The position numbers and the translations under genes were made by a program. The notes under the pieces were generated by a model, which saw only the letters and a list, made by a program, of their open reading frames with translations, searched no databases and had not been told where the DNA came from. Shown piece by piece: positions 8,868-31,843 of a stretch of 31,843 nucleotides of DNA. This DNA is from a virus: the IMG/VR virus record IMGVR_UViG_3300046817_000787, positions 1 through 31,843 of that record; one strand, given 5' to 3'. Positions within the stretch are counted from its first letter, which is position 1, and the number at the start of each line of letters is the position of its first letter.

Positions 8868-11800
8868 ATGGCGGACCCGTTCGATTACGGCGTCAACTAC
8901 CTCTCCAGCACGCTCGGCCTAACCCCGGAGCAGGCGCGCGGCGCCGTCCGGTGGATGAGCCGCGTCGAGAGCGGCCTTAATCCCTCGATCGTCAATCCCA
9001 GCAGCGGCGCCTACGGCATTGGTCAGTGGCTTGGGCCACGCAAGCAGGCACTGTTCAGGAACTATGGCCCCTCTCCGTCTATTGAGCAGCAATTTGCGCA
9101 CACGGCCGATGAGTTGCGCGGCCCCGAGGCGGGCGCGCTCCGAGCGTTGCGTGGGGCCAAAACCGAGGACGAGGCATTCAGGGTTTGGGGAAGCGCATTT
9201 GAGCGGCCAAGCCCCGCTGAATATGCCAAGGCGACCGGCGGATATAAGTCAGGTCTGCGAGCGCCCTCGGGGCCTAGCGAGGGCTATTACGACAGCGCCC
9301 TCCACCTGACGCTGCGGCCGGAGCCGGAATTTCCGGCCGATGCCGTTCTCGATACGCTGCTCGGCAGCGGCGACGACACGACGAAACAGCCGACCGGGCC
9401 TCTGGCGCTGCTCGATTCGCTGATGGCGCAGCGGCCGGACGAGGCCAAAAGGGCGTCAGGAGGCGACACCATCGAGCCGCCGGGCCTTCCGTCACCGGCG
9501 CCAAACCTGCTCGCCGAGCATGCGGCCGATCTTGAGCCGGCCAAGATGCAGCCGATCTCGGCGGCGTTGCCACAGCTGCCCGCGGCGCCGGCCATGCAGA
9601 ACCGGCCGGCCGCTCCGGTCGGGGACACCATCGAACCGCTGGCGATGGGGCAGACCGCGCCGCCCATGCCGCAGATGCAGAAAGGCGTGATGGAGCCGGC
9701 CGAGCATCCGACGAGCCTGATCGACACGCTGCTGAAGGGGGCGATGTCCTCGATCAAGGCGGGCGGCGGTGAGGCCGCACCGGGCTTTGCGCGCGGAGTC
9801 GTGAGAGGCGCGGGGGCCGGGTTCACCGGCCAGCCGGTCGAGGGCGAGGGCAAGCCGCCGGTTGCGAGCGGCGCCGAAGCTGCGGGGCTTATCCCCGGCG
9901 CGGTCGGCGGCATGCTGCTGTCGCCGCTGCACACCGGCGGCCAAGCGTTGCAGGCGGCGATGGAGGGCCAGCCGGTCGCGGCGCAGGAGATGCTGACTGC
10001 CGGGATGGCTGGCGTGGACCCGATGGGGCGGCTGCCGGGGGGTGTTTCACGTGAAACACCGGGCGTCATGCAACGGCTTGCGTCCAGCGAGCAAGGGGCA
10101 ATTCCGCTGCCGCCGCAGCTTGTCCAGGGCGTCAAGGACGCCGGAAAGGGCATCGAGAAAGTGTTCTCTCCCTCGACCGTGGACGCCTTTTCCGAGGCGG
10201 GGGAGGCCCTGTTCCGCAAGGAGGTCGGCTCGGCTCGGCGATCAACGGAAAGGGCCGAGGCGCAGGTCGGCGCACGCGGCCCGCTGGCGAACCGGCCAGC
10301 GGCAGATTTTGTCGAGGCGGCGCGGGAGCCCTGGCGGCCGCTGGTGCAACGCTACATTCCCGAGTTTCAGGCGTACATCGTAGCAAAGAAAGCTGGTCTG
10401 TCGCCGCCGAAGCCGGCGCTGCTGAATTTCCTCGATTTCGTCGAGACCCGCAGCCAGGGCACGCAATACAGCGGGCCGCCGGAGCTGCGGCCACTCGCCG
10501 ATATCATGCGCAAGCTGTTCAAGGAGCGAGAGCTGGCGATCGCCGCCGAGCCGTCCACGTCAGGCGCTTCCTTTGTCGAAGACTACTATGCCCACCAGTA
10601 CCGCGACCCGGCTGGCGTCACCCGCGCGATGGGCGCGGCGGCGGGGCGGCAAGGTACCGGGCGGGCGCTAAAGAAGCGATCCATCCCGACGATTTCCGAC
10701 GCGATCGACATGGGGTTCGAGCCGGTGACGCTTGACCCTGTCGATATGACCATGCGCAACGTCGCGAACATGGACCGCTACCTCGCGCACAACCGCATTT
10801 TCCGCGTCGGCCGCGACAGCGGCATGATCCGGTATTATCCGCGCGGCAACCAGCCGGACGGGTGGGGGCCGCTGGAGGGGCGGCTGGCCGAACGGGCTAT
10901 CGCGATCCACAGCCAGCAGAACCCGCAACCGCGCGGCGTCGTAATCCAGGCGTATGCCCCGGACGGATTCGCCCGCATCTACAACAACTCCGTCGCGCTG
11001 GGCTTCCTGCATGGCGAACTCGGCGGCAAAGCCTATACCGCAGCGTTGCACGCCAAGAACGCGATCACCCAGTCTGTCCTGGCGCTGTCCGGCTATCACG
11101 CTCTGGCGATGTCGCAGGAGGCATCGGCATCGGCCTTCGCGTCCGGCATCCAGGCGCTGAAGGCCGGAGATATCCGCGAGGGCCTGAAGCAGGTCGGGCT
11201 CGGTGCTATCCCCGGCGTAAAGGCAGGGAAAGACGTGTTCGGCATCGGCCGCAAGATGGAGCGGCAGTACCGCGGCATCGACGACTACGGCCCCGATTTC
11301 GAGAGGGTCGCTGACCTCTATGCCAAGTCCGGGTCTCGCATGGTCGGGCGCGGCGCCGAGTACCAGGGCACGTCGCGGCAGAACTATTTCACCGCGTTCC
11401 GGCGGGGCCAGACCCGGATGGAGCTGGCCGCCGGGCTGCGTGATGTCGGCGAAGGCAACCCGGTCTACGCACCGATGCGAGCGGTCGGGTTCCTCGCCGG
11501 CGAACTCGCCCGGATCAACGAGACCATCACCGCTCCGCTGTTCGACAAGGTGGTGCCGCGGCTCAAGGCCGCCGCCTTCTATGATGAGATGTCCGAATGG
11601 CTGGCGCAGAACCCCAACGCCACGCCAGATATCCAGCTGCGGCAAGCCCGCGAGTTCTCTGACCGGATGGACGACCGCTTCGGCGAGCTTGTCATGGACA
11701 ACCTATTCTGGGCGGGGCGGGCAAAGCAGGGGCTGCAGCTGGCAGCAACCTCTCTCGGCTGGGAGCACGGCTCGATCCGCTCGATCGGCGGAGCGGCGCT

Positions 11801-12563
11801 CGACGTGCTGCGCGGCCAGTTCAGCCCCCGCGTGCGGTACGTGATCGGCCTCGGCATGGCGGTCGGTCTCGAGAACGCAGTCTATCAGTACCTCAAGACC
11901 GGCAAGACGCCGGGGGAGGGCCGCGGCGGCGTCATGTCCCCCGGCGGCGCACTCGACATGGCTCTGCCCCGTACCGGCGGCCAGACCCCGGAGGGCGCGG
12001 CCGAACGCGCGCTGCTGCCGGGCTTCGAGAAGGATATCCTCGGCTACATGCACGATCCGGTCGGCGAGTTGGCCGGCAAGCTGTCTCCGGCCGGGCGGCT
12101 CACCGTCGAGGCGTTCACCGGGCGCGACTATTTCGGGCGGGAGATCGCACCGTTCCCGAAATACACCCCGGCCTGGTTCAAGGCTTACGCCGGCCATGTG
12201 TTGCAGAGTATGTCGCCGATCCCGCTACGGCAGGAGCAGTTGAAGGGCACCAGCATCGGGCAGGCTGAGCGGTTTGTCGGCGGCAACCGCCCGGCACCCG
12301 AGCGGTGGCAGAACCCGATGCGGCAGGAGAAGATGGAGACATCCAGCCACATTCGGGCACTGAAGGGCCAGCTCGCTGGTCTTTACGCGCACGGCGTGCG
12401 GACGCAGCAGGAGCGCAAGGAACTGGACGCCAAGGCCAAGGAGATCATGGGGCAGATCAAGTCGCTACAGGACGATCTTCAGCGCCACCAGCGCGAGGGG
12501 CGGTCGTCCGAATATCTCTACAAGCCAGACCGCGAGCTGCGCGTGCCGACGAGCGGCCCGTGA
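8868..12563 (+). CDS. Giant internal virion protein with N-terminal lysozyme-like domain
   Basis: The product has 1231 residues. Residues ~15-120 form a phage lysozyme-like domain: Glu34 in RVESGLNP is the likely catalytic acid, followed by SSGAYGIGQWLGPRKQALF, the conserved substrate-groove segment. In T7 gp16 a comparable domain opens peptidoglycan during DNA entry. Residues ~150-430 are a Pro/Ala/Gly-rich linker, and ~440-1150 are mostly helical with several hydrophobic stretches. The last ~80 residues are a charged coiled coil. The size, order and neighbours fit the largest ejection-channel protein. A chromosomal-type ParB site lies inside the linker (10041-10060), encoding GVSRET. The end overlaps the next gene as GTGA. 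Confidence 0.8.
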   Translation: MADPFDYGVNYLSSTLGLTPEQARGAVRWMSRVESGLNPSIVNPSSGAYGIGQWLGPRKQALFRNYGPSPSIEQQFAHTADELRGPEAGALRALRGAKTEDEAFRVWGSAFERPSPAEYAKATGGYKSGLRAPSGPSEGYYDSALHLTLRPEPEFPADAVLDTLLGSGDDTTKQPTGPLALLDSLMAQRPDEAKRASGGDTIEPPGLPSPAPNLLAEHAADLEPAKMQPISAALPQLPAAPAMQNRPAAPVGDTIEPLAMGQTAPPMPQMQKGVMEPAEHPTSLIDTLLKGAMSSIKAGGGEAAPGFARGVVRGAGAGFTGQPVEGEGKPPVASGAEAAGLIPGAVGGMLLSPLHTGGQALQAAMEGQPVAAQEMLTAGMAGVDPMGRLPGGVSRETPGVMQRLASSEQGAIPLPPQLVQGVKDAGKGIEKVFSPSTVDAFSEAGEALFRKEVGSARRSTERAEAQVGARGPLANRPAADFVEAAREPWRPLVQRYIPEFQAYIVAKKAGLSPPKPALLNFLDFVETRSQGTQYSGPPELRPLADIMRKLFKERELAIAAEPSTSGASFVEDYYAHQYRDPAGVTRAMGAAAGRQGTGRALKKRSIPTISDAIDMGFEPVTLDPVDMTMRNVANMDRYLAHNRIFRVGRDSGMIRYYPRGNQPDGWGPLEGRLAERAIAIHSQQNPQPRGVVIQAYAPDGFARIYNNSVALGFLHGELGGKAYTAALHAKNAITQSVLALSGYHALAMSQEASASAFASGIQALKAGDIREGLKQVGLGAIPGVKAGKDVFGIGRKMERQYRGIDDYGPDFERVADLYAKSGSRMVGRGAEYQGTSRQNYFTAFRRGQTRMELAAGLRDVGEGNPVYAPMRAVGFLAGELARINETITAPLFDKVVPRLKAAAFYDEMSEWLAQNPNATPDIQLRQAREFSDRMDDRFGELVMDNLFWAGRAKQGLQLAATSLGWEHGSIRSIGGAALDVLRGQFSPRVRYVIGLGMAVGLENAVYQYLKTGKTPGEGRGGVMSPGGALDMALPRTGGQTPEGAAERALLPGFEKDILGYMHDPVGELAGKLSPAGRLTVEAFTGRDYFGREIAPFPKYTPAWFKAYAGHVLQSMSPIPLRQEQLKGTSIGQAERFVGGNRPAPERWQNPMRQEKMETSSHIRALKGQLAGLYAHGVRTQQERKELDAKAKEIMGQIKSLQDDLQRHQREGRSSEYLYKPDRELRVPTSGP
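10041..10060. promoter_or_regulatory. Consensus parS-type ParB-binding site inside a virion gene
   Basis: The bases at 10043-10058 read TGTTTCACGTGAAACA, the consensus of chromosomal parS centromere sites. They extend to a perfect 20-bp palindrome at 10041-10060. Chromosomal ParB binds such sites, loads as a CTP-dependent clamp and spreads. The site lies in the proline/glycine-rich linker of the giant internal virion protein, where it is read as GVSRET. No parA- or parB-like gene is present in the window, so the binding protein would be encoded elsewhere in the phage or by the host. The match is seen directly; function is inferred. Confidence 0.8.
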
Positions 12564-13858
12564 GGGCACTCATTGTCGAGCCCCACGCCGATGGTCTGCT
12601 CGATCTAGCGATCCGAGGCAAGAAGCATGGCCACGATATCAAATACTGGTGCCGTGATTTTGACGCCCAGAAGTGCCCGGTCGGCCGCGGCCTTGTGGAC
12701 CGGGTGCCGGACTGGCGCTCACTCGCGCGCCGGGTCGATCTCGTCATCCTGGGAAGCCTCGGGTACGCTCAGCGCGAGTTTGACCAGCTTAAAGCGGAGG
12801 GCATCCCCGTCATCGGCGCCCCCGGCCTCGTAGGAGAGTGGGAGCTTAACCGCCTCGTCGGGATGCAAGAGTTCAAGCGCGCCGGTATCCCGGTCCCACC
12901 GTATCGGCAATGCACCAATTATGACGAGGCTATCCGTCTTGCCGCAGAGCGTGAGGACGGGTGCGCCATCAAGCCCTGTGGCGATGTAACAGACAAAAGC
13001 CTGTCGTTCGTCGCCAAGACCCCGCGCGAGGCCGTCTGGCGGCTCCAACGGTGGAAGCGGCAAGGGAAGGTGTTTCCGCAAGGCTTCATCCTCCAGGATT
13101 TAGTCAAGGGCGTCGAGTTCGCGGTCGGCGGCTGGATCGGCCCCGGCGGCTTCGCTTCGGGGTGGGAGGAGAATTTCGAGGAGAAGCGACTCTTCGCCGG
13201 CGGCGTTGGTCCCAACTGCGGTGAAGCGGGCACGGTGATGCGGCTCGTCACCAAGTCCAAACTGGCTGAAAAAGTCTTGAGCCCGTTCGAGGACCGCCTC
13301 GTATCTCTGGGGTACGTCGGCAATGTCGATGTCAACTGTATCGTCGATGACGATGGTAATCCTTGGCCCCTGGAGTTCACCTGTCGCTTTGGCTACCCTG
13401 CCTTCAACCTTGAACTGGCACTTCATCGCGGCGATCCCATCGAGTTTCTGGCCGGGCTCGCGGCAGGGAAGCCGCCCAAGAGCCGGGCGTTGAACGAGAT
13501 TGCGGTCGGCGTCGTCATGGCGCTGCCGCCGTACCCGTACCGGGAGAATACCGAGGAAACGGTCGGCGCGCCGATCTGGGGCGTTACCCCCGGTATCGAG
13601 GACAACCTGCATTTCTGCATGGCGCAGCGCGGCCAGTGGGACGGTGAGCCGACGCTGATGACGGCGGGCTCGTACACGCTGGTCTCGACAGGCACCGGGG
13701 AGAGCGTCGTCGAGGCCCGCACCAAAGCGTATCGCGTGTTGGACCGGCTCACGATCCCGGCGAGTCCGTTCTTTAGGAATGACATTGGCTCGCGGCTCCG
13801 GTCGCAGCTGGACAAGCTACAGGCCAACGGCTACGCGACCGGGATGCGCTACGCCTAG
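12560..13858 (+). CDS. PurD (GARS)-like ATP-grasp protein
   Basis: The product has 432 residues. The N-terminus resembles the first domain of phosphoribosylamine-glycine ligase. The region around residues 180-225 (VKGVEFAVGGW, then EEKRLFAGGVGPNCGEAGTV) parallels the PurD ATP-grasp segment with its KR...GPNTGG motif. Residues 271-282 (LEFTCRFGYPAF) parallel the metal-binding E-x-N-x-RFGDPE motif, but Asn is replaced by Thr274, and DPE by YPA. Substrate specificity is therefore probably altered. ATP-grasp enzymes join a carboxylate to an amine or thiol using ATP. GTG 12560 makes a GTGA overlap with the ejection-protein gene, which suggests late expression. Its target is unknown: a purine precursor, a peptide or a virion protein. 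Confidence 0.72.
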   Translation: MRALIVEPHADGLLDLAIRGKKHGHDIKYWCRDFDAQKCPVGRGLVDRVPDWRSLARRVDLVILGSLGYAQREFDQLKAEGIPVIGAPGLVGEWELNRLVGMQEFKRAGIPVPPYRQCTNYDEAIRLAAEREDGCAIKPCGDVTDKSLSFVAKTPREAVWRLQRWKRQGKVFPQGFILQDLVKGVEFAVGGWIGPGGFASGWEENFEEKRLFAGGVGPNCGEAGTVMRLVTKSKLAEKVLSPFEDRLVSLGYVGNVDVNCIVDDDGNPWPLEFTCRFGYPAFNLELALHRGDPIEFLAGLAAGKPPKSRALNEIAVGVVMALPPYPYRENTEETVGAPIWGVTPGIEDNLHFCMAQRGQWDGEPTLMTAGSYTLVSTGTGESVVEARTKAYRVLDRLTIPASPFFRNDIGSRLRSQLDKLQANGYATGMRYA

Positions 13859-15954: not shown

Positions 15955-16349
15955 GTCTTCTCTCCCCAGGTTAAACCGTCGATAGCGTCCCCGTATTCGG
16001 GCCAGTCCACGCCCAACTCCCGCGCCACCATCGCCTCGATCAGCGTCGCGAAAGCGTGCTCCTTGCGGTAGGGCGCGTCGGGATGCTCGCCCGGCTCGCC
16101 CTCGCCGCCACTCGCTTCGTGCTCCTTGTCGAAGGCGGTCACAGCCTCCTCGCTGATGCCGCGGTGATGGCACAGCGCGGCCTCGACCATCTCGTGAATC
16201 GCGATCAGGAACTCGAAGCGCCAATCGCCGAGTTCGGAGACGCGCACAATGATCCGACCGTCATGGTCGATCAGCCAGTCGCCACATGTATCGTACCGTT
16301 GATCGGCGTGGCGGATCACATCGACGCGGACGAGCGGGGTGGTTGTCAT
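15951..16349 (-). CDS. Hypothetical protein with HExxE-type metal-like motif
   Basis: The product has 132 residues. A helix around residues 48-70 reads FLIAIHEMVEAALCHHRGI and is followed by VTAFDKEHE; the H-E-x-x-E pattern and extra histidines could bind metal, though it is not a classical HExxH protease. No confirmed family. I preferred ATG 16349 to ATG 16361, because 16349 makes an ATGA overlap with the small membrane gene upstream and neither start has a clear ribosome site. The first eight residues (MTTTPLVR) are identical at DNA level to the start of that upstream gene. The stop overlaps erf as ATGA. Confidence 0.68.
   Translation of the reverse strand: MTTTPLVRVDVIRHADQRYDTCGDWLIDHDGRIIVRVSELGDWRFEFLIAIHEMVEAALCHHRGISEEAVTAFDKEHEASGGEGEPGEHPDAPYRKEHAFATLIEAMVARELGVDWPEYGDAIDGLTWGEKT
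16325..16349 (-). repeat. 25-bp direct repeat, copy A (gene 5' end)
   Basis: These 25 bases are identical to 16498-16522, 173 bases away. On the minus strand both copies begin with ATG and encode MTTTPLVR, the first eight residues of two adjacent genes whose remaining sequences are unrelated. Confidence 0.9.
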
Positions 16350-16522
16350 GGGAGTAACCATTCAAAAAACAATATCAATAGGGCTATTGGGCCAAAAACC
16401 AGATATCGCAGTATCGTCTTAAGGTAAAAAAGTCCCACAACGGCTATAGCGCTTGCTGATATGCTGGCTAGCAGAACAGCCAAATAACACCAATAGGCGC
16501 GGACGAGCGGGGTGGTTGTCAT
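16346..16522 (-). CDS. Small two-span membrane protein, 58 aa
   Basis: An ATG at 16522 opens 58 codons leftward. After MTTTPLVRAYWC come two hydrophobic segments (residues ~12-32 and ~40-55) separated by a short basic turn (LKTILRY), and the protein ends EWLLP. The stop overlaps the next gene's start as ATGA, which supports expression. No family is recognised. Its first 25 bases, starting with the ATG, are an exact copy of the first 25 bases of the downstream gene, while the rest is unrelated. Base composition is more AT-rich than neighbouring genes, suggesting recent acquisition. Confidence 0.6.
   Translation of the reverse strand: MTTTPLVRAYWCYLAVLLASISASAIAVVGLFYLKTILRYLVFGPIALLILFFEWLLP
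16498..16522 (-). repeat. 25-bp direct repeat, copy B (gene 5' end)
   Basis: Exact second copy of 16325-16349. It forms the first 25 coding bases of the 58-residue membrane protein gene. Identity stops at both edges, so the duplicated unit is only the start of the gene. Confidence 0.9.
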
Positions 16523-21431: not shown

Positions 21432-21691
21432 TCCTCGTAGGCCGAGTTGAGGCGGATCGCCGTAGCTACCGCGGCAAATGCTGAGTGGGTGGGAAGCGGT
21501 ATCTGTTGCCCGTCGCTGGCGACCAGCACGAAGGCCGGGATCGGCATGCCGTTGGGCTTCGTCGGGAAATCGACGCGATAGGGTCCGGGCGGCAGCGGCG
21601 CCAGGTCCAGCGCGGCCTCGATCGTGCGCCGGTCAAGCCGTTGCGCGCGACGCACCGCCCGCCGCCGCCGCCACCATCGCGCGATGCTCAT
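21416..21691 (-). CDS. Duplicated basic protein, short copy (module 2)
   Basis: The product has 91 residues. It starts with an arginine-rich stretch (MSIARWWRRRRAVRRAQRL) and continues with PLPPGPYRVDFPTKPNG and VLVASDGQQIPLPTHSAF. It is nearly identical to residues 1-75 of the protein at 22733-23068, then ends with an unrelated 13-residue tail. ATG 21691 makes an ATGA overlap with the nuclease gene. No function is recognised; the basic N-terminus could bind nucleic acid. It converges with the RepA-like gene. Confidence 0.72.
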   Translation of the reverse strand: MSIARWWRRRRAVRRAQRLDRRTIEAALDLAPLPPGPYRVDFPTKPNGMPIPAFVLVASDGQQIPLPTHSAFAAVATAIRLNSAYEDQSSR

Positions 21692-21960
21692 CGTTCCGCC
21701 GCGAGCGCGGCCGCGAGCGAGGAGAATTTCTCGACGGCTTGCCTGCCAATGAGAACCAGCGCCGCAGCATTGCGGGGCAGTTTCGAGAGCTGTCCTGCAA
21801 TACGATCGGAATGCCACTGCTTAACCTCAACGTATAGGTCCATCGCCGGCAGGTAAAAATCCAGATTCGTTGGGTCGGACTGGGTTTGCTCCGGGCGCGT
21901 ATATTCTACCCCGGCGCCCTCCATCAGGATGATAAATTGCTTTTCAAGGGGGCACGTCAT
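21688..21960 (-). CDS. Small PD-(D/E)XK-like nuclease candidate, 90 aa
   Basis: The segment NLDFYLPAMDLYVEVKQWHSDR (shown here as its parts NLDFYLPAMDL and YVEVKQW) contains an Asp, a spacing of about ten residues and E-x-K, the arrangement of PD-(D/E)XK nucleases such as very-short-patch or restriction-like enzymes. An upstream EKQF...GVEYTRPEQ segment resembles their N-terminal helix. At 90 residues it is minimal. ATG 21960 has GGAGGA suitably upstream; the longer open frame is not supported. It takes the slot that an unrelated gene fills in the other module copy. It could be a nicking or junction enzyme. Confidence 0.55.
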   Translation of the reverse strand: MTCPLEKQFIILMEGAGVEYTRPEQTQSDPTNLDFYLPAMDLYVEVKQWHSDRIAGQLSKLPRNAAALVLIGRQAVEKFSSLAAALAAER

Positions 21961-21982
21961 AGGTGCGTCCTCCAAACCCAGG

Positions 21983-22183
21983 TCAGGGCGGCCAGCGTCG
22001 CCACCCAGGCGGCACCCAGAGGCGGCCAGGTCGGCGCGGTCGGTGAGGGAGGGCCAGTATCCCAACAAGCAAGCCGCCCGCTATCGTGTGGAGGGCAGCC
22101 GCTGAGAGGCGGTCAGGCACGGCGAGGGCGGCAATGCTGCCGCCCAACACCAGCGCCGCGAGAATGCCCTGCGCCTTGCTCAT
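21983..22183 (-). CDS. Truncated signal-peptide paralogue of the thermonuclease
   Basis: The product has 66 residues. Its first ~23 (MSKAQGILAALVLGGSIAAL...) are nearly identical to the thermonuclease at 23235-23720, but the following sequence (LHTIAGGLLVGILALPHRP) is unrelated and adds a second hydrophobic stretch. No catalytic residues remain. The start overlaps the upstream stop as ATGA. It may be a degraded copy or a new small membrane protein built on the old signal peptide. The downstream nuclease has its own ribosome site. Confidence 0.58.
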   Translation of the reverse strand: MSKAQGILAALVLGGSIAALAVPDRLSAAALHTIAGGLLVGILALPHRPRRPGRLWVPPGWRRWPP

Positions 22184-22473
22184 CCGGTCGTCACCCTATC
22201 TTCGGCCTCCAGCCGATCTGCAAGCGCCTCCAGTTCTGCAGCTGCCTTTGGATACGCTCTCGGGCGCATGCCGCGGGCAGCTAAATCTCGGAGCGTTGCC
22301 GCTTGGCGGCGCAATACCTCCCATTTGGCAGGCTGGGCCACCGGCTTAAGAACTACGCCAGAAAACAGCTTTCCCGCCTCTCGCTTCATGGCCGCGGCGC
22401 GCGCTCGCTTACTCATTCGGCCTGACGGGCTCAAAAGCGAATGGTCGATAGACGGCCAGGTGCAAGCTCTCAC
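22180..22473 (-). CDS. Basic helical protein filling slot 2 of the second module
   Basis: The GTG at 22473 makes a GTGA overlap with the upstream stop, at the position matching the ATG of the equivalent gene in the other module; this gives 97 residues. An ATG at 22416 (78 residues) is also possible. The product is rich in Lys, Arg and Ala (SKRARAAAMKREAGKLF, then ATLRDLAARGMRPRAY) and helical. It is unrelated to the gene in the same slot of the first module (23717-23896). Function unknown. Confidence 0.58.
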   Translation of the reverse strand: MRACTWPSIDHSLLSPSGRMSKRARAAAMKREAGKLFSGVVLKPVAQPAKWEVLRRQAATLRDLAARGMRPRAYPKAAAELEALADRLEAEDRVTTG

Positions 22474-22733
22474 AACAACGCCTCTCTCTCCAATTTGCCA
22501 CACTCGCTCGCGGCCGCGCCCATCAGCCGGCGGATATCCTCGTCGGCTACCGTGAAGTCGTCTGCCGCCTCCTCGCACTCCGCGGCCAGCGTCAGCGCGC
22601 CGGCCTGGCGGAAGCGTGTCGCGGCCAGCATCAGCAATTCCGGCTGCTGCGTGGCACCTGCCTCCGACGCCCGGTAAAGCAGGGAGGCCCCGGCGGCGCA
22701 TTGCCGCCAGCGTCCCTCGACCTCGCGCGGCAT
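22470..22733 (-). CDS. Helical-repeat protein, duplicate of 23893-24156
   Basis: The product has 87 residues. The sequence (EGRWRQCAAGASLLYRASEA, then ALTLAAECEEAADDFTVADE, then CGKLEREALL) closely follows its paralogue 1.4 kb away. It looks all-helical, like a small helical hairpin. ATG 22733 overlaps the upstream stop as TGATG. No known family. Keeping both copies suggests selection or very recent duplication. Confidence 0.72.
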   Translation of the reverse strand: MPREVEGRWRQCAAGASLLYRASEAGATQQPELLMLAATRFRQAGALTLAAECEEAADDFTVADEDIRRLMGAAASECGKLEREALL

Positions 22734-23068
22734 CAGCAGAAATCCTTGTGTGCGCTGTCCCAAACCTGCATTGGGACATAATCAGGAAACGGCAGCCCGG
22801 GCTCGACGTAGCGGATTGCCGGGTCGGGGCCGAATTCCGTAGCGACCGCGGCGAAGGCCGAGTGGGTGGGTAGCGGTATCTGTTGCCCGTCGCTGGCGAC
22901 CAGCACGAAGGCCGGGATCGGCATGCCGTTGGGCTTCGTCGGGAAATCGACGCGGTAGGGGCCCGGCGGCAGCGGCGCCAGGTCAAGCGCGGCCTCGATC
23001 GTGCGACGGTCCAGCCGCTGCGCGTGCCTCACCGCTCGACGGCGGCGCCACCAGCGTGCGATGCTCAT
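22733..23068 (-). CDS. Duplicated basic protein, full-length copy (module 1)
   Basis: The product has 111 residues. The N-terminal ~75 match the protein at 21416-21691, including the RWWRRRR start. The C-terminus is distinct and carries EFGPDPAIRYVEPGLPF and PMQVWDSAHKDFC. ATG 23068 is preferred to 23074 because it makes an ATGA overlap and matches the start of the paralogue. Comparison suggests the short copy lost its C-terminus. Function unknown. Confidence 0.72.
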   Translation of the reverse strand: MSIARWWRRRRAVRHAQRLDRRTIEAALDLAPLPPGPYRVDFPTKPNGMPIPAFVLVASDGQQIPLPTHSAFAAVATEFGPDPAIRYVEPGLPFPDYVPMQVWDSAHKDFC

Positions 23069-23238
23069 CCCCATATCCAGAGATTCCAGCCACCCGCGCT
23101 GTCGTGTGTTATCTCGACGTAGGGAGCGGCCAGCGCCGCGAGCTTTTCGATATCTGCCGCAAAGGCGTCGCCCTCGGCTTTGGTGCCGTAGTGGCCCTGA
23201 AGGTACGCCACGCGGGGGTCTGGGTCGTAGTCCATCAT
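23065..23238 (-). CDS. Small hypothetical protein, 57 aa, slot 4 of module 1
   Basis: The product begins MMDYDPDPRVAYLQGHYG, continues with FAADIEKLAALAAPYVEIT and ends GGWNLWIWG. It is a small alpha/beta protein without a known family. The start overlaps the thermonuclease stop (ATGATG), and the stop overlaps the next start as ATGA. In the other module this slot holds the small nuclease candidate. Confidence 0.6.
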   Translation of the reverse strand: MMDYDPDPRVAYLQGHYGTKAEGDAFAADIEKLAALAAPYVEITHDSAGGWNLWIWG

Positions 23239-23720
23239 CGGCGCGCCCTCCTCCAATCTGCCGGCATCGTGAAGCTGGTCGCCCACATGCCCAGGCGTTC
23301 CTGCTGCGCTGCGGCCTCCTCGTCGCGGTAGAAGCCGTGGCTGTAGTGGCGGTAGTCTACAGCCAGCCCCAGAGCCACCATGCGCCGGCCAAGATCGCCG
23401 TCCACAGTATGGCACAGAGCCACAATGCGGCCGTACCTATCGCGATCTCGCGGGTTGCAGGTAACAGCATCATGGGCCGTCATCCTTCGTATCGCGGCAG
23501 TCGCGGCCTCACCGCACGCGAAGCTGCCGCAGGTCTGGTCGTGCTCGGGGGCGTCCATGCCCCATAGCCTGATGCGGCGGCCGGCCAGCTCGAGAGTGTC
23601 GCCGTCGATGGTGCGGGCGTAGCCGGTCAGCTCGCCTGCCGACATGACCTCAGGCACGGCGAGGGCGGCAATGCTGCCGCCCAACACCAGCGCCGCGAGG
23701 AGGCCTTGCGCTTTGCTCAT
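23235..23720 (-). CDS. Secreted thermonuclease (SNase-like)
   Basis: The product has 161 residues. Residues 1-22 form a signal peptide (MSKAQGLLAALVLGGSIAAL). The SNase core is intact: TIDGDT (Asp39 and Asp41), RIRLWGMDAPE (Arg51, Asp56, Glu59), and DRYGRIV with Arg98, matching the metal-binding and catalytic Asp, Arg, Glu and Arg of staphylococcal nuclease. Paired Cys at 64/69 and 88/103 suit an oxidising environment. The enzyme would cut DNA and RNA in the periplasm or outside the cell. It may degrade incoming foreign DNA (superinfection exclusion) or extracellular DNA. Start and stop overlap neighbours as ATGA. Confidence 0.85.
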   Translation of the reverse strand: MSKAQGLLAALVLGGSIAALAVPEVMSAGELTGYARTIDGDTLELAGRRIRLWGMDAPEHDQTCGSFACGEAATAAIRRMTAHDAVTCNPRDRDRYGRIVALCHTVDGDLGRRMVALGLAVDYRHYSHGFYRDEEAAAQQERLGMWATSFTMPADWRRARR

Positions 23721-23896
23721 GCGCTTGGCTGTCTATGTGGGGTTACCTTGACAGCCCCCCATTTACCCAGCGGGTTGCGCGTGTTCGCCGCTGCCGCCGC
23801 GTTTCTCGCGGCCTCCTCGGTGTCGTATTGCTTGCGGTCCAAAACCTCGAAGGATTGCGAGAAAATCTGCCAGCGTGGCTTCCCAGGATCGCTCAT
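23717..23896 (-). CDS. Small hypothetical protein, 59 aa, slot 2 of module 1
   Basis: The product is a small polar protein (SDPGKPRWQIFSQSFEVLD, then TEEAARNAAAAANTRNPLG, ending QPSA). The KQYDTEEAARNAAAA part resembles short DUF2188-like or repeat segments, but no family is certain. ATG 23896 makes an ATGA overlap with the upstream gene, and the stop overlaps the thermonuclease start. Confidence 0.6.
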   Translation of the reverse strand: MSDPGKPRWQIFSQSFEVLDRKQYDTEEAARNAAAAANTRNPLGKWGAVKVTPHRQPSA

Positions 23897-24156
23897 GACA
23901 ACGCCTCTCTCTCCAATTTGCCGCACTCGCCTGCGGCCGCGTCCATCAGCCGGCGGATATCCTCGTCGGCCACGGTGAAGTCGTCTGCCGCATCCTCGCA
24001 CTCCGCAGCCAGCGTCAGCGCGCCTGCCTGGCGGAAGCGGATCGCGGCCAGCATCAGCAATTCCGGCTGCTGCGTGGCGCTGGCCTCCGCTGCCCGGTAG
24101 AGCAGGGAGGCCCCAGCGGCGCATTGCTTCCAGCGACCCTCGGCCATGCTCGGCAT
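23893..24156 (-). CDS. Helical-repeat protein, slot 1 of module 1
   Basis: The product has 87 residues. It closely matches the paralogue at 22470-22733 (GRWKQCAAGASLLYRAAEAS and FRQAGALTLAAECEDAADDF). It is all-helical with no recognised family. ATG 24156 makes a TGATG overlap with the upstream gene. It opens the first of the two tandem modules. Confidence 0.7.
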   Translation of the reverse strand: MPSMAEGRWKQCAAGASLLYRAAEASATQQPELLMLAAIRFRQAGALTLAAECEDAADDFTVADEDIRRLMDAAAGECGKLEREALS

Positions 24157-24401
24157 CAGGCCGAACCCACCAAAGAGTTCGGCACATAGACGTAGCGGTA
24201 GATCGGATCGTGGCTGTTGCCCGTCAATTCGATCAGCAACTGCACGTCATCGACAGCCCACGCCACGCCCATCGGATCATCGACTAGGCGCAGTTTAGTG
24301 CCGGCCGGTATCGTGATCGTGGTTCGCAGCATCGGGCTTTGTGCCTCAAAAACCGTCGTTTGCCAGTCTTTGCATAGGACCGCTTCGGCGATGGTGGTCA
24401 T
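24156..24401 (-). CDS. Hypothetical beta-rich protein, 81 aa
   Basis: The middle reads LRTTITIPAGTKLRLVDDP and continues with VAWAVDDVQLLIEL, consistent with a small beta-barrel. No family is recognised. The gene starts with ATGACCACCATC and is preceded by the same 30-bp leader as the gene at 24853, including a GGGGAG ribosome site. The stop overlaps the next gene as TGATG. Confidence 0.62.
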   Translation of the reverse strand: MTTIAEAVLCKDWQTTVFEAQSPMLRTTITIPAGTKLRLVDDPMGVAWAVDDVQLLIELTGNSHDPIYRYVYVPNSLVGSA

Positions 24402-26264: not shown

Positions 26265-26293
26265 TTGAAATTTGCGTCTGTGTGGTATAAGAT
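26265..26293 (+). promoter_or_regulatory. Candidate promoter of the RepL-like gene
   Basis: TTGAAA (26265-26270) and TAAGAT (26288-26293) are separated by 17 bases; the overlapping TATAAG at 26286 gives a spacer of 15. The block lies about 32 bases before the ATG and is clearly more AT-rich than its surroundings. Confidence 0.5.
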
Positions 26294-26324
26294 ATGCCTT
26301 GTCGCGCAAGATTTTGAGGGCAAT

Positions 26325-26759
26325 ATGAACCAGGGGCCTGATCTTCCTGTTCTGCGGGTCGTGGGGTTTTCCAAGAGGCGGAAGCATCCCTATCGGGCGG
26401 AGAGATTTATGATCGCGTCGTATCTGGGGCTGGAGGAGCTGCTGGCGCGCACCGGGGACCACTCGCTCGGCATGCAGGCGGTGCGCGTGCTGCTGGCGAT
26501 GATGGCAGAGTGCGATTACGAGAACCGGGTGCGCGGCGGCCAGAAGGACCTGGCCCGCAAGCTGGGGATGAACCAGGCCCATGTCAGCCGGGCGATCCGC
26601 GACTTGATCGAGTGCGGCTTTGTCGAGAACCCGCACAACGACCGCGGCCGCTATCTCGTCAGCCCGAAGCTGTGCTGGAAAGGAGACGAGGACAGCCTGC
26701 GGCAGGCACTGTCCGAGCGGAACCTGCTAAGCGCCGAGGGCTACCTGCGGGCGGCGTAG
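26325..26759 (+). CDS. RepL-like winged-helix DNA-binding protein
   Basis: The product has 144 residues. Residues 73-98 form a helix-turn-helix (QKDLARKLGMNQAHVSRAIR, then DLIECGF), followed by a beta-wing with GRYLVSPKLCWKGD. The wing ending in a YxxxPxxxWKG pattern is typical of RepL-type plasmid replication proteins and related phage regulators. It could start replication or control transcription. ATG 26325, preceded by GAGGG, was chosen over an upstream in-frame codon. The gene follows the repeat-bearing segment, which could be its target. It converges on the next gene with one base between stops. No replication-initiator nuclease motif is seen. Confidence 0.72.
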   Translation: MNQGPDLPVLRVVGFSKRRKHPYRAERFMIASYLGLEELLARTGDHSLGMQAVRVLLAMMAECDYENRVRGGQKDLARKLGMNQAHVSRAIRDLIECGFVENPHNDRGRYLVSPKLCWKGDEDSLRQALSERNLLSAEGYLRAA

Positions 26760-28270: not shown

Positions 28271-28379
28271 CGCCTTCAAGCCCCACGAGCTGGCGCTGAA
28301 GCCGGACCTGCGCCGGCTGCCGCCGCGGCCCGTGATGGACGGCTACCGCTCCTCGGCGCTGCTGGCGATGGAGCGGTGA
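28176..28379 (+). CDS. Small protein with CxxC motif, 67 aa
   Basis: A GTG at 28176 with GGAGG nine bases upstream opens 67 codons. The product starts NRSDAQCQECDRREYWMVPW and continues with a proline-rich region (LSPIPL, RRLPPRPVMDGYR). The CxxC pair suggests a metal site. The stop overlaps the radical-SAM gene as TGATG, which supports it as the true upstream neighbour. No family is recognised. Confidence 0.55.
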   Translation: MNRSDAQCQECDRREYWMVPWPRLSPIPLARDAFKPHELALKPDLRRLPPRPVMDGYRSSALLAMER

Positions 28380-29215
28380 TGCGCATCATTCGGGTATTCC
28401 CGCGCAAGACCAGAGCCACACCCGATGACGCCCTTGTTTATTGCGGCCCGCCGGATTTGCTGGCCTACGCGGACGAGGTTCACGTCTCTGTTACGTTCAC
28501 TTGGGACAAGCCGCGCGCCGAGCGACTTGCGGAGGAATGGCGATGGGTCGCGCCGGTCAAGATCGGCGGGGTTGCCTACGGCGATTCCAGTCTGGAGTTC
28601 ATCCCCGGTCGTTACATCAAGCCGGGGTACACGATAACCTCGCGCGGCTGCCCCGAGCGGTGCTGGTTTTGCAGCGTTTGGAAGAAGTGGCCGACCGTCA
28701 ATCTGCTGCCGATCCATGATGGCTGGAACGTCCTCGACGACAACCTGCTGGCCTGTCCGCGCGAGCATGTCGAAGCTGTGTTCGAGATGCTGCGACGCCA
28801 AAAGAGACGATGCGAGTTCAGCGGGGGCATCCAGCCGGCAAGGCTGGAGGATTGGCATGTCGATCTGTTTGCCAGCCTAAAGCCGCGGCCGAATATTTTC
28901 TTCGCGTATGACGATCCGGGCGGGACGAACGATACCCTTGAAAGCCTGGAGAGCGCCGCCAGCCGGTTGATTGCCGCCGGTTTCACCGCCGCATCTCACC
29001 GGCTGCGGTCTTTCGTTCTGATCGGGTTCCCGAAAGATACGCGGGAGGCTGCGGAGGAACGGTTGACCTCACTGGTCCGCGTCGGCATTACGCCGTTCGC
29101 GATGCGCTGGCGGCCGGAGAATGCGGCCGGAGAGCGCCGGGCACCGGGGCCGGAGTGGCAAGCCTTTCAGCGCAGCTGGTCGAGGCCCGCAATGATCCAC
29201 GCAAGGGCGGCGTAA
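28379..29215 (+). CDS. Phage radical-SAM family protein
   Basis: The product has 278 residues. The motif TSRGCPERCWFCSVW supplies CxxxCxxC (Cys91, Cys95, Cys98), which binds the 4Fe-4S cluster that cleaves S-adenosylmethionine. The preceding KIGGVAYGD and following WNVLDDNLLACPREHVEAVF, FSGGIQ and IFFAYD fit a radical-SAM TIM barrel. The N-terminal MRIIRVFPRK and surrounding pattern recall radical-SAM proteins of tailed phages whose reaction is unknown. ATG 28379 makes a TGATG overlap. The location just before the terminase suggests late expression. DNA, RNA or protein modification are all possible. Confidence 0.8.
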   Translation: MRIIRVFPRKTRATPDDALVYCGPPDLLAYADEVHVSVTFTWDKPRAERLAEEWRWVAPVKIGGVAYGDSSLEFIPGRYIKPGYTITSRGCPERCWFCSVWKKWPTVNLLPIHDGWNVLDDNLLACPREHVEAVFEMLRRQKRRCEFSGGIQPARLEDWHVDLFASLKPRPNIFFAYDDPGGTNDTLESLESAASRLIAAGFTAASHRLRSFVLIGFPKDTREAAEERLTSLVRVGITPFAMRWRPENAAGERRAPGPEWQAFQRSWSRPAMIHARAA

Positions 29216-29510: not shown

Positions 29511-31616
29511 ATGGCCGAAGGCGATACCAGGAGCGCCGAGCAGGCTGACGCGGAGACCCGCGCCCGCATCATCGGCATCCTGGTCTCCGACAAGTGGCAG
29601 GCTCACCAAACGATATTCGAGCATCGCCACCAGCACGGCGGGGTGCCGGTCGAGCCGGCCCCCTTCCACAAGGAACTGATTTCCGACTTCTGGTCCGACG
29701 ACCGCTACTCGATCCGCATGGCCTTCCGCGGCTCGGCCAAATCGACGCTGGGCGAAGAAGACATCACCCTCGCCGCGTGCCTGCGGCAGTTCCACAATAT
29801 CCTGGTGATCGGCTCGTCCGAGACCCGCGCTGCCGAGCGGCTGGCCGCAGTCGCCTACGAACTCGCCAACAACGAATACCTCACCCGCCTGTTCGGCGAT
29901 CTGAAGGGCGCGGTGTGGACCCAGACGAAGCTCGTCACCACCGGCAACGTCTGCATCCAGGCGATGGGGCGGGACCAGGATATCCGGGGGGTCAAGTATC
30001 TCGACTACCGGCCCGACCTGGTGTTCGTCGATGACGTGGAAAGCCCCGAATCGGTGCAGACCCCGGAGCAGCGCATCAAGACCCTGCGCTGGTTCCTGGC
30101 CGAGCTGCTGCCGGCCTGCGCGCCGAATGTGAAGGTGCGCATCCGGGCGACGCCGATGGACGCCGAATCGGTGCCGATGCGGCTGCAAAGGGAAAGCGGC
30201 TGGCCGACCAAGACGTACCCGGTGGAGTACATCGACGAGGCCGGCAAGCGGCAACCATCCTGGCCGGCGGCCTATCCCCTGACCTGGATCGACCGGCAGC
30301 GGCAGAACTACGCCGCGCTGGGCGAGCTTGGAGTGTGGGACCGGGAATATATGTGCAAAGCGGTGTCCGACGCCGACACCCCGTTCAAGCGAGAGATGAT
30401 CCGCGTCTCGCCGAGGGAAAAGTCATGGCACGCCTGCTACGCCTTCATCGACCCGGCAAGAACCACCGGGCGGAACTCAGCATCGACGGGCTGGGCTGTC
30501 TGGTCGTGGATATCAAACCGCCTAGTCGTCTGGGCCGCCGGCGCGCAGATGCTGCTGCCCGACGAGATCGTGGCGCTGGCCTTCGATATCCACGAACGCT
30601 TCGATCCCGTCTGGATCGGCGTGGAGCTTGACGGCCTAGAGCAATGGCTGTTGCAGCCGCTGCGCCACGAGATGGCTCGCCGCGGCACGTCGATCCCGAT
30701 TCGCGGCCTCCGCGCGCCGCGATCAAAGCTTGATTTCATCAAGGGGCTGCAACCCTATTTCCACAGCCGCGAGTGCGAGTTCGCGCAGCCCCTTCCCGAA
30801 CTGACCGAGCAATTGCTGAACTTCCCTCGCGGCCGCATCGACGCGCCGAACGCGCTTGCCTACGCGCTCCAGATGCGACCGGGCCTGCCGGTCTATGACG
30901 CCTTCAACGGCGCCGAGCACATCGTCCACGACCTTGACTACGACCACACCAAGCCGCTGTTCCTCGCCGCCAACGCAACGGGCGCGATGACGACGGCGGC
31001 GCTGGTGCAGCTGGCCGAGGGGCGCCTCTTGGTCTTGGCGGACTGGGTGATGGAAGGGAACCCCGGCGAGTGCGTCGATATCATCCACCGCGAGGCGACC
31101 TTGGCCGGCGAATCGGTGCGCGCCGGCATCCGGCCCGAGACGCGGCACTGGTCGGACATGCTGAAGCAGGCGGCGCCTATGCCCTATATGCGCTCCCGCG
31201 CGCCGACCTGGATTTACCCGCCGCACCACGCCGAGAGGTACACCAATGTCGGGCTGGTTCAAGCGATCGGGACTATACCGGCTGATCGCCGGATGGGCGG
31301 GGAGGAAGTCCGGGGCCAGCTTCAAATGCGCGACCTGCTTGGCCGTACAGCCGGCGGAATGTCCCTTGTCCAGATATCAGGACTGGCCTCGTGGACCTGC
31401 CGAGCCCTCTCCGGTGGTTATAGTCGATCCCTGGTGCGAGGCCGGATACAGGACGCGGCGGAAGAAGGCCCCTACCGCCTCCTGGTGGAAGGCATCGAAT
31501 CGTTTCTTGCGCTGAGCCATGCGCGGCGCGAAGAAGAAGACGCGGATAATCAGCAGCCGACCGGCGTTGATCCTTTTGGGCGGGTCTATAAGACCGCCGT
31601 ACCGATGAGGAACTGA
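29511..31616 (+). CDS. terL: Terminase large subunit with extra C-terminal domain
   Basis: The product has 701 residues. The packaging ATPase has Walker A in RGSAKST (residues 73-79) and Walker B in LVFVDDVE (Asp174/175). The RNase H-like nuclease begins at CYAFIDPARTTG (Asp314). It translocates DNA into the procapsid and cuts it. Typical podovirus proteins are about 500-600 residues, so some 150-200 residues at the C-terminus (from ~450, starting FNGAEHIVHDLDYDHT) are extra and may form another beta-sheet domain or a portal-docking part. Only three bases separate its ATG from the preceding stop. The next gene starts one base after its stop. Confidence 0.9.
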   Translation: MAEGDTRSAEQADAETRARIIGILVSDKWQAHQTIFEHRHQHGGVPVEPAPFHKELISDFWSDDRYSIRMAFRGSAKSTLGEEDITLAACLRQFHNILVIGSSETRAAERLAAVAYELANNEYLTRLFGDLKGAVWTQTKLVTTGNVCIQAMGRDQDIRGVKYLDYRPDLVFVDDVESPESVQTPEQRIKTLRWFLAELLPACAPNVKVRIRATPMDAESVPMRLQRESGWPTKTYPVEYIDEAGKRQPSWPAAYPLTWIDRQRQNYAALGELGVWDREYMCKAVSDADTPFKREMIRVSPREKSWHACYAFIDPARTTGRNSASTGWAVWSWISNRLVVWAAGAQMLLPDEIVALAFDIHERFDPVWIGVELDGLEQWLLQPLRHEMARRGTSIPIRGLRAPRSKLDFIKGLQPYFHSRECEFAQPLPELTEQLLNFPRGRIDAPNALAYALQMRPGLPVYDAFNGAEHIVHDLDYDHTKPLFLAANATGAMTTAALVQLAEGRLLVLADWVMEGNPGECVDIIHREATLAGESVRAGIRPETRHWSDMLKQAAPMPYMRSRAPTWIYPPHHAERYTNVGLVQAIGTIPADRRMGGEEVRGQLQMRDLLGRTAGGMSLVQISGLASWTCRALSGGYSRSLVRGRIQDAAEEGPYRLLVEGIESFLALSHARREEEDADNQQPTGVDPFGRVYKTAVPMRN

Positions 31617-31617
31617 G

Positions 31618-31843
31618 ATGGCCCGTTCGCAGGACAACCAGACCGACGCCCCGGAAGACATTCGGACCCCGGCGCAGGGAACCGCCGGTGCCGATAAGGT
31701 GCTGCCGGTCGATCCCAAGGCCGACCCCCGGGCACTGGGCGCTCCGATGCCCTCGACGGCCAAGGTGCCGGGCGTGGCGTTCGCCGGGCCGGAGTGGATG
31801 CCGATGACGCAGGCCGACCGCGCCCGCCTCCAGGCGCTGCGCG
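31618..31843 (+). CDS. Start of a hypothetical protein, cut by the right edge
   Basis: An ATG directly after terL opens at least 75 codons to the window end. The visible N-terminus is polar, with many Pro, Asp and Ala (ARSQDNQTDAPEDIRTPAQG, then VLPVDPKADPRALGAPMPS). It is not a portal as far as can be seen. The gene is probably part of the virion block, and its identity needs the missing sequence. Confidence 0.65.
   Translation, partial: MARSQDNQTDAPEDIRTPAQGTAGADKVLPVDPKADPRALGAPMPSTAKVPGVAFAGPEWMPMTQADRARLQALR

Follow-up and report, generated by a model that had tools for sequence, protein, structure and literature searches.

Introduction

CTP-gated clamp loading and sliding are the established behaviour of ParB, and the chromosomal parS site of the bacterial ParABS systems is the 16-bp palindrome TGTTTCACGTGAAACA. 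The same palindrome is carried by the phages described here; unlike its chromosomal counterparts, it is present in one or two copies within a virus gene, and no parA or parB was found on the replicon. The recruitment of a host protein by means of a short site copied from the chromosome-maintenance apparatus of the host has a parallel in the CTXphi-type phages, which use the host XerCD recombinases at dif sites, although the dif copy of CTXphi serves integration, whereas a phage parS would serve positioning or segregation.

Two further systems have to be considered for comparison. The mycobacteriophage RedRock also has a partition site on its genome, but it encodes its own parA and parB and its parS loci consist of eight 8-bp repeats (PMC7157519), in contrast to the one or two parS sites and the lack of recognisable partition genes in our case. 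Staphylococcus phage Lacachita likewise possesses half of a partition system, though it is the reverse half, ParB without ParA, as against parS without ParB here; its authors state that no characterised phage with ParB alone was known to them (PMC10286716). Full-text searches covering part of the journals, preprints excluded, brought up phages that encode either a ParABS system of their own or ParB as the sole component, and none with an orphan chromosomal-type parS.

Results

The DNA analysed, referred to as the window, is a 31,843-bp virus record of IMG/VR. Positions 10041-10060 of the window read GGTGTTTCACGTGAAACACC, a 20-bp palindrome without mismatch, within which the exact parS 16-mer lies at 10043-10058, flanked by GG and CC (sequence scan, 10041..10060, no strand assigned). 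With up to 3 mismatches allowed, the window contains no other match to the parS 16-mer; in dinucleotide shuffles of the window (100 runs) the mean was 0.01 matches at the same threshold, and the expectation for the exact 16-mer in 31,843 bp, from the base composition of the record, is 1.1e-6, by which a chance match could be ruled out as the source of the 16-mer. The preliminary description, made from the letters of the window, had claimed a perfect palindrome holding the consensus ParB site and a chance origin that was very unlikely, and both statements stand.

The site is read in frame as GVSRETP within the gene of a 1231-aa virion protein (8868..12563, plus strand, open reading frame), where the codons GTT TCA CGT GAA ACA encode VSRET at residues 393-397; the earlier remark that coding for GVSRET is compatible with the site is thus correct. 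Site included, GTT accounts for 4 of the 60, CGT for 4 of the 92 and ACA for 2 of the 49 codons of the respective amino acids in this gene. Residues 9-117 belong to a Phage_lysozyme2 domain (8892..9218, plus strand; PF18013, E 3.7e-14), and since this N-terminal domain and the length of the protein fit, it is probably an ejection protein. The placement of the site in the linker of an ejection protein can be retained as far as the 1231-aa gene is concerned, the word ejection being derived from the lysozyme domain and the length. Among isolates nine phage records were matched, over at most 9% of the length of the gene, which corresponds to the lysozyme end.

Other features of the window include a PurD-like frame at 12305-13858, in which GARS_C passes the Pfam cut-off and GARS_A falls short of it, and which is possibly an auxiliary metabolic gene; a staphylococcal-nuclease domain at 23235-23720 (minus strand); a winged-helix protein at 26265-26759, for which RepL scored 20.6 against a cut-off of 20.3 bits and other HTH models fit better; and a radical-SAM-like protein at 28376-29215 (plus strand), assigned by PHROG as radical SAM and below the cut-off in Pfam. 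Comparison with contig G001 revealed repeats within 21441-24159, namely 22469-22736 with 23892-24159 (89.9% identical), 21441-21692 with 22818-23069 (88.9%) and 22113-22186 with 23650-23723 (93.2%).

The 10043 copy is present only in the species of the window (G000, G001). It is not kept in the G002 homologue of the virion gene (57% amino acid identity), where the homologous linker differs, and the virion gene of the long relatives is devoid of it, their one site each being located in the portal gene; it is therefore a peculiarity of the window's species. Conservation as DNA beyond the coding need was not observed for this copy, as the relatives do not have the site. The alignment of homologues proposed in the preliminary description, together with the outcome on which it would have withdrawn its claim, hence turned against the 10043 palindrome, which is absent from G002 and the long relatives.

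The situation is different for a second site beyond the end of the window. The window and the contigs G001 and G004 are at least 99.9% identical over their main shared blocks, and the window joined with G004 yields a circle of 46,624 bp, holding exactly two exact parS sites, at 10043 and 32817, and none other at up to 4 mismatches. The two are 22,774 bp apart on the 46,624-bp circle, almost diametrically opposite. The second perfect parS lies 974 bp past base 31843, the last of the window, and the far end of G001 begins just after it. The order of genes is the terminase large subunit (29511..31616, plus strand; phrog_38, E 7.8e-54), with the family-wide parS some 1.2 kb beyond its downstream end, then one small gene of which the window contains the start (31618..31843, plus strand, cut at the window end), and then the gene carrying parS 32817, which is, judged by its position, probably the portal. 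No Pfam family was found for this gene; it has two distant matches among isolates, one of which (23% identity) is annotated as head to tail joining protein.

Search of the viral contigs by portal alignment resulted in 39 loci. An exact parS lies within the portal gene in 34 of them, and in three others the site has 1-2 mismatches (L176, CGTTTCACGTGAAACG; L177, TGTTTCACGTGAAACC; L185, TGTTTCACGTGAAATA); deviations among the portal sites are confined to positions 1, 15 and 16. The two loci without portal site, L192 and L195, are the most divergent of the 39 (41% and 43% amino acid identity in the best segment), while L191 has an exact portal site despite 43% identity. Whole-record scans found the site once per record in 3 of 3 records (up to 3 mismatches), in 6 of 7 (up to 2 mismatches, the exception being a 5.4-kb fragment) and in 14 of 16 (up to 2 mismatches, the exceptions being the records of L192 and L195).

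Since several loci belong to one species, the 39 loci were thinned to 16 representatives with less than 90% nucleotide identity, which left L185 out; 14 of the 16 have VSRET. The codons GTT TCA CGT GAA are invariant in all 14 and ACA is found in 12, even though in the portal genes these codons make up 7.4 (GTT), 1.2 (TCA), 5.2 (CGT), 18.9 (GAA) and 3.6% (ACA) of the codons of their own amino acids. When the 123 columns sharing one degenerate amino acid in all 14 representatives were compared, the mean pairwise codon identity was 0.945 for those of the motif and 0.627 for the remainder. Five such columns follow one another in four places only, of which the motif scored a log10 of -88.7 and the runner-up -32.9; these scores assume independence of the 14 representatives, which is untrue, and serve as a rank of columns and not as probabilities. 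The portal parS is conserved as DNA beyond the need of the protein. The conservation of parS at the DNA level, looked for at 10043 without success, is thus a property of the second site, in the probable portal outside the window.

A wider search for relatives, of which the best 80 of 152 were kept together with three contigs from metagenome-assembled genomes (MAGs), gave 82 loci for examination (79 of the 80, L191 having been counted before, and the three MAG contigs). The site is exact in 8 and within 2 mismatches in 9 of the 82; one of the exact ones, L298, is the core-family contig G003. Among 29 whole records of the wider group the site was exact in 6, had one mismatch in 1 and two mismatches in 3, and was absent within 2 mismatches from 19, therefore it is dispensable in the wider group. 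Its location also varies. It is exact at the homologous portal position in L291, within the terminase gene in L250-L254 (with flanks alike in all), 153 bp upstream of the portal in L233, and, in the record of L243, within or immediately ahead of a small gene; L233 and L243 are sisters on the tree and have no similarity around their sites. Related phages thus carry parS at several non-homologous places. When the site labels were placed on a portal tree of 41 rows built with FastTree, 9 changes were required, compared with a shuffled mean of 17.7, and the portal site is present in 14/14 rows of one group; as L191 and L221 (the latter with one mismatch) carry the portal site scattered amid rows without it, gain and loss are indistinguishable on this tree.

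The preliminary description had noted neither parA nor parB in the window and had recommended to look for parB in the rest of the phage. In agreement with the former, ParB_N (PF02195) and AAA_31 (PF13614, ParA) had no match in the window record; in the recommended search none of 12 records from the family group reached the ParB_N cut-off, with one match below it in G020 (14.7 bits), and AAA_31 was above the cut-off in 0 of 10. Integrases of the tyrosine type, the type searched for, were likewise above the cut-off in 0 of 10 records. The control genomes were positive in 11/14 (ParB_N), 14/14 (AAA_31) and 14/14 (tyrosine integrase) cases, and the searched records include the same-species set G000, G001 and G004 as well as G019, a relative without the site. 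The locus accordingly has neither the own parA and parB of a phage or plasmid ParABS cassette (0/12 and 0/10 as above) nor the repeat-built site of such a cassette, having one site per record, or two distant ones on the circle of the window. A chromosomal site would lie near the origin of a ParAB-encoding chromosome; since this phage has no ParB_N or AAA_31 above the cut-off, the element was filed as a parS-type site and not as a chromosomal centromere.

A first scan of the genome contigs for a host returned 122 stretches with the pattern, none of them a relative. In a second scan portal relatives were encountered in MAGs of Elusimicrobia (43.0 kb), Kiloniellaceae (41.1 kb) and Eremiobacterota (3.5 kb) (L299-L301), with no site at up to 2 mismatches in the three stretches. 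These MAGs were rejected as host evidence: the phyla disagree, the stretches have no site, and therefore no host was assigned. Mis-binning is likely, given the unrelated phyla and the phage size of two of the contigs (41-43 kb).

Outside the family, exact parS was found in at least 120 stretches of the viral contigs, amounting to at least 146 sites, while three control palindromes of equal composition were found in 1, 1 and 5 stretches, the last one keeping CACGTG. IMG/VR may include pieces of plasmids or chromosomes, therefore these figures are to be read as an excess of parS and not as a count of phages. ParB_N was detected in 2 of 50 of these records at E <= 0.001, in 1 of them above the cut-off. 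The record of L015, which is among the 50, has no PF02195 match; its 1354-aa frame holding parS (L015:3-4064) matches phrog_2579, the ParB C-terminal domain (E 4.2e-23), therefore the ParB_N search overlooks some ParB-like proteins. The portal and the virion gene of the family had no match among the 120 loci listed, and the terminase had a distant match in two.

A common terminase, with some identities of 27-29%, is shared by 34 of the 120 loci listed, the query counted, and in 14 of these 34 the site falls within a range from 142 bp upstream of the stop-to-stop frame to 32 bp into it. Named relatives near that terminase include the Pelagibacter phages HTVC027P (61%) and HTVC023P (55%). Among six named relatives of these pelagiphage-type loci, five have no site at up to 2 mismatches and HTVC027P alone has one, which differs at one position and lies in a largely unannotated frame. 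This frame of about 95 aa (HTVC027P 16199-16509; L213:1200-1510), in which the site is read as FHVKH, is related to frames of 023Pt_psg01 (59%) and of DSL-LC04 (46%); in the records of both, no site was seen at up to 2 mismatches. Three further loci, on contigs of 4.4-6.0 kb, carry REP_ORF2-G2P Rep genes; microvirus-like is our own label for them. A blastn search with two site copies joined by Ns gave no match, the query being perhaps too short for the E-value limit.

Discussion

The best explanation, which we hold to be somewhat more likely than not, is that these phages carry a working chromosomal-type parS without ParA or ParB, which would be read by the ParB of the host for positioning or segregation of the phage DNA. 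Binding of host ParB is inferred from the identity with the consensus and from the fact that changes occur only at tolerated positions: the Caulobacter site is listed as t/cGTTt/cCACGTGAAAca in a published table, and position 1 of parS is named as tolerated in a paper. The use of host ParB, put forward in the preliminary description, is accordingly still the best reading of an exact orphan parS, although the conserved site is the one in the portal gene and not the 10043 copy. The uses named there, tethering close to the host origin, segregation in the manner of a plasmid and silencing of late genes, look alike at the level of sequence. A host ParB dimer would recognise the phage parS, load as a CTP-gated clamp and slide onto the adjacent phage DNA. 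The phage might thereby gain attachment to ParA and the nucleoid as well as SMC loading, and its genomes could be positioned or shared out like the origins of the host, with the greatest benefit in a slow or carrier-type infection. It is our guess that the purpose is positioning or segregation and does not lie in titrating ParB, in regulating genes or in compaction. Against the whole reading it should be emphasized that, within 2 mismatches, the site is absent from 19/29 wider records and 5/6 named pelagiphage relatives, and that the 16-mer is predicted as an mRNA hairpin in most representatives. A divergent ParB of phage origin could also be missed, considering the sub-cut-off match of G020 and the PHROG match of L015.

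Among the alternatives the one that survives best, although it is unlikely, is a decoy, where many phage copies of the site titrate the host ParB off the origins and halt chromosome segregation. One or two sites per genome would multiply through replication, and the lack of tyrosine integrase matches is as in a lytic phage, but the family has single sites and not arrays.

Considerably less probable is that the conserved element acts as RNA, as a hairpin of the portal transcript (TGTTTC, loop ACGT, GAAACA) affecting translation or stability. By folding, the mean pair probability is at least 0.77 in 12 of the 14 representatives and L176 swaps both outer bases jointly, from T-A to C-G; however, the pair probability falls to 0.516 in L160 and 0.124 in L189, and since any palindrome must pair, the prediction is no argument either for or against binding as DNA. 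The letters of loop and stem themselves, and not the pairing alone, are fixed and equal to parS, sites are found in unrelated genes and close to gene starts, and the CACGTG-keeping control palindrome, equally able to pair, occurs in 5 stretches; because the letters are fixed and the contexts unrelated, a role as DNA is favoured over one as RNA. An equally small chance is given to a regulatory element, at which bound ParB, of the host or an unrecognised phage protein, modulates the expression of structural genes. Throughout the family, as in part of the pelagiphage-type loci, the genes for terminase and portal contain the site or have it close by, and a reference, judged by its title, credits the Sop system of N15 with facilitating late gene expression, but the portal sites are internal to the gene and not at a promoter, and the extra site of the window is 22.8 kb away. 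Least probable of all is that the portal copy is the only functional one, the 10043 copy being a match that arose by chance or is neutral, which would suit the restriction of the latter to G000 and G001 and the different linker of G002, but is opposed by the expectation of 1.1e-6 for an exact 16-mer and by the infrequent codons GTT, CGT and ACA which the site uses in the 1231-aa gene.

The host-ParB reading may extend beyond the family. We give about even chances to the view that an orphan parS of the host type serves viruses as a general strategy, acquired separately by unrelated phages, with loading of host ParB and no own partition protein, jointly covering the tailed family described here, the pelagiphage-type tailed phages and the small phages with microvirus-like Rep genes.

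Taken together, a phage group in which no partition genes were found keeps an exact bacterial centromere sequence in its virion genes, and our data suggest that it borrows the segregation protein of its host. If host ParB indeed loads, a 16-bp site would be enough for a virus to join the chromosome-segregation machinery of the cell, which, if true, would change the view of phage DNA positioning and of carrier states. The role of ParB clamps on non-chromosomal DNA becomes a testable question, and phage contigs can mislead the finding of origins on the basis of parS.
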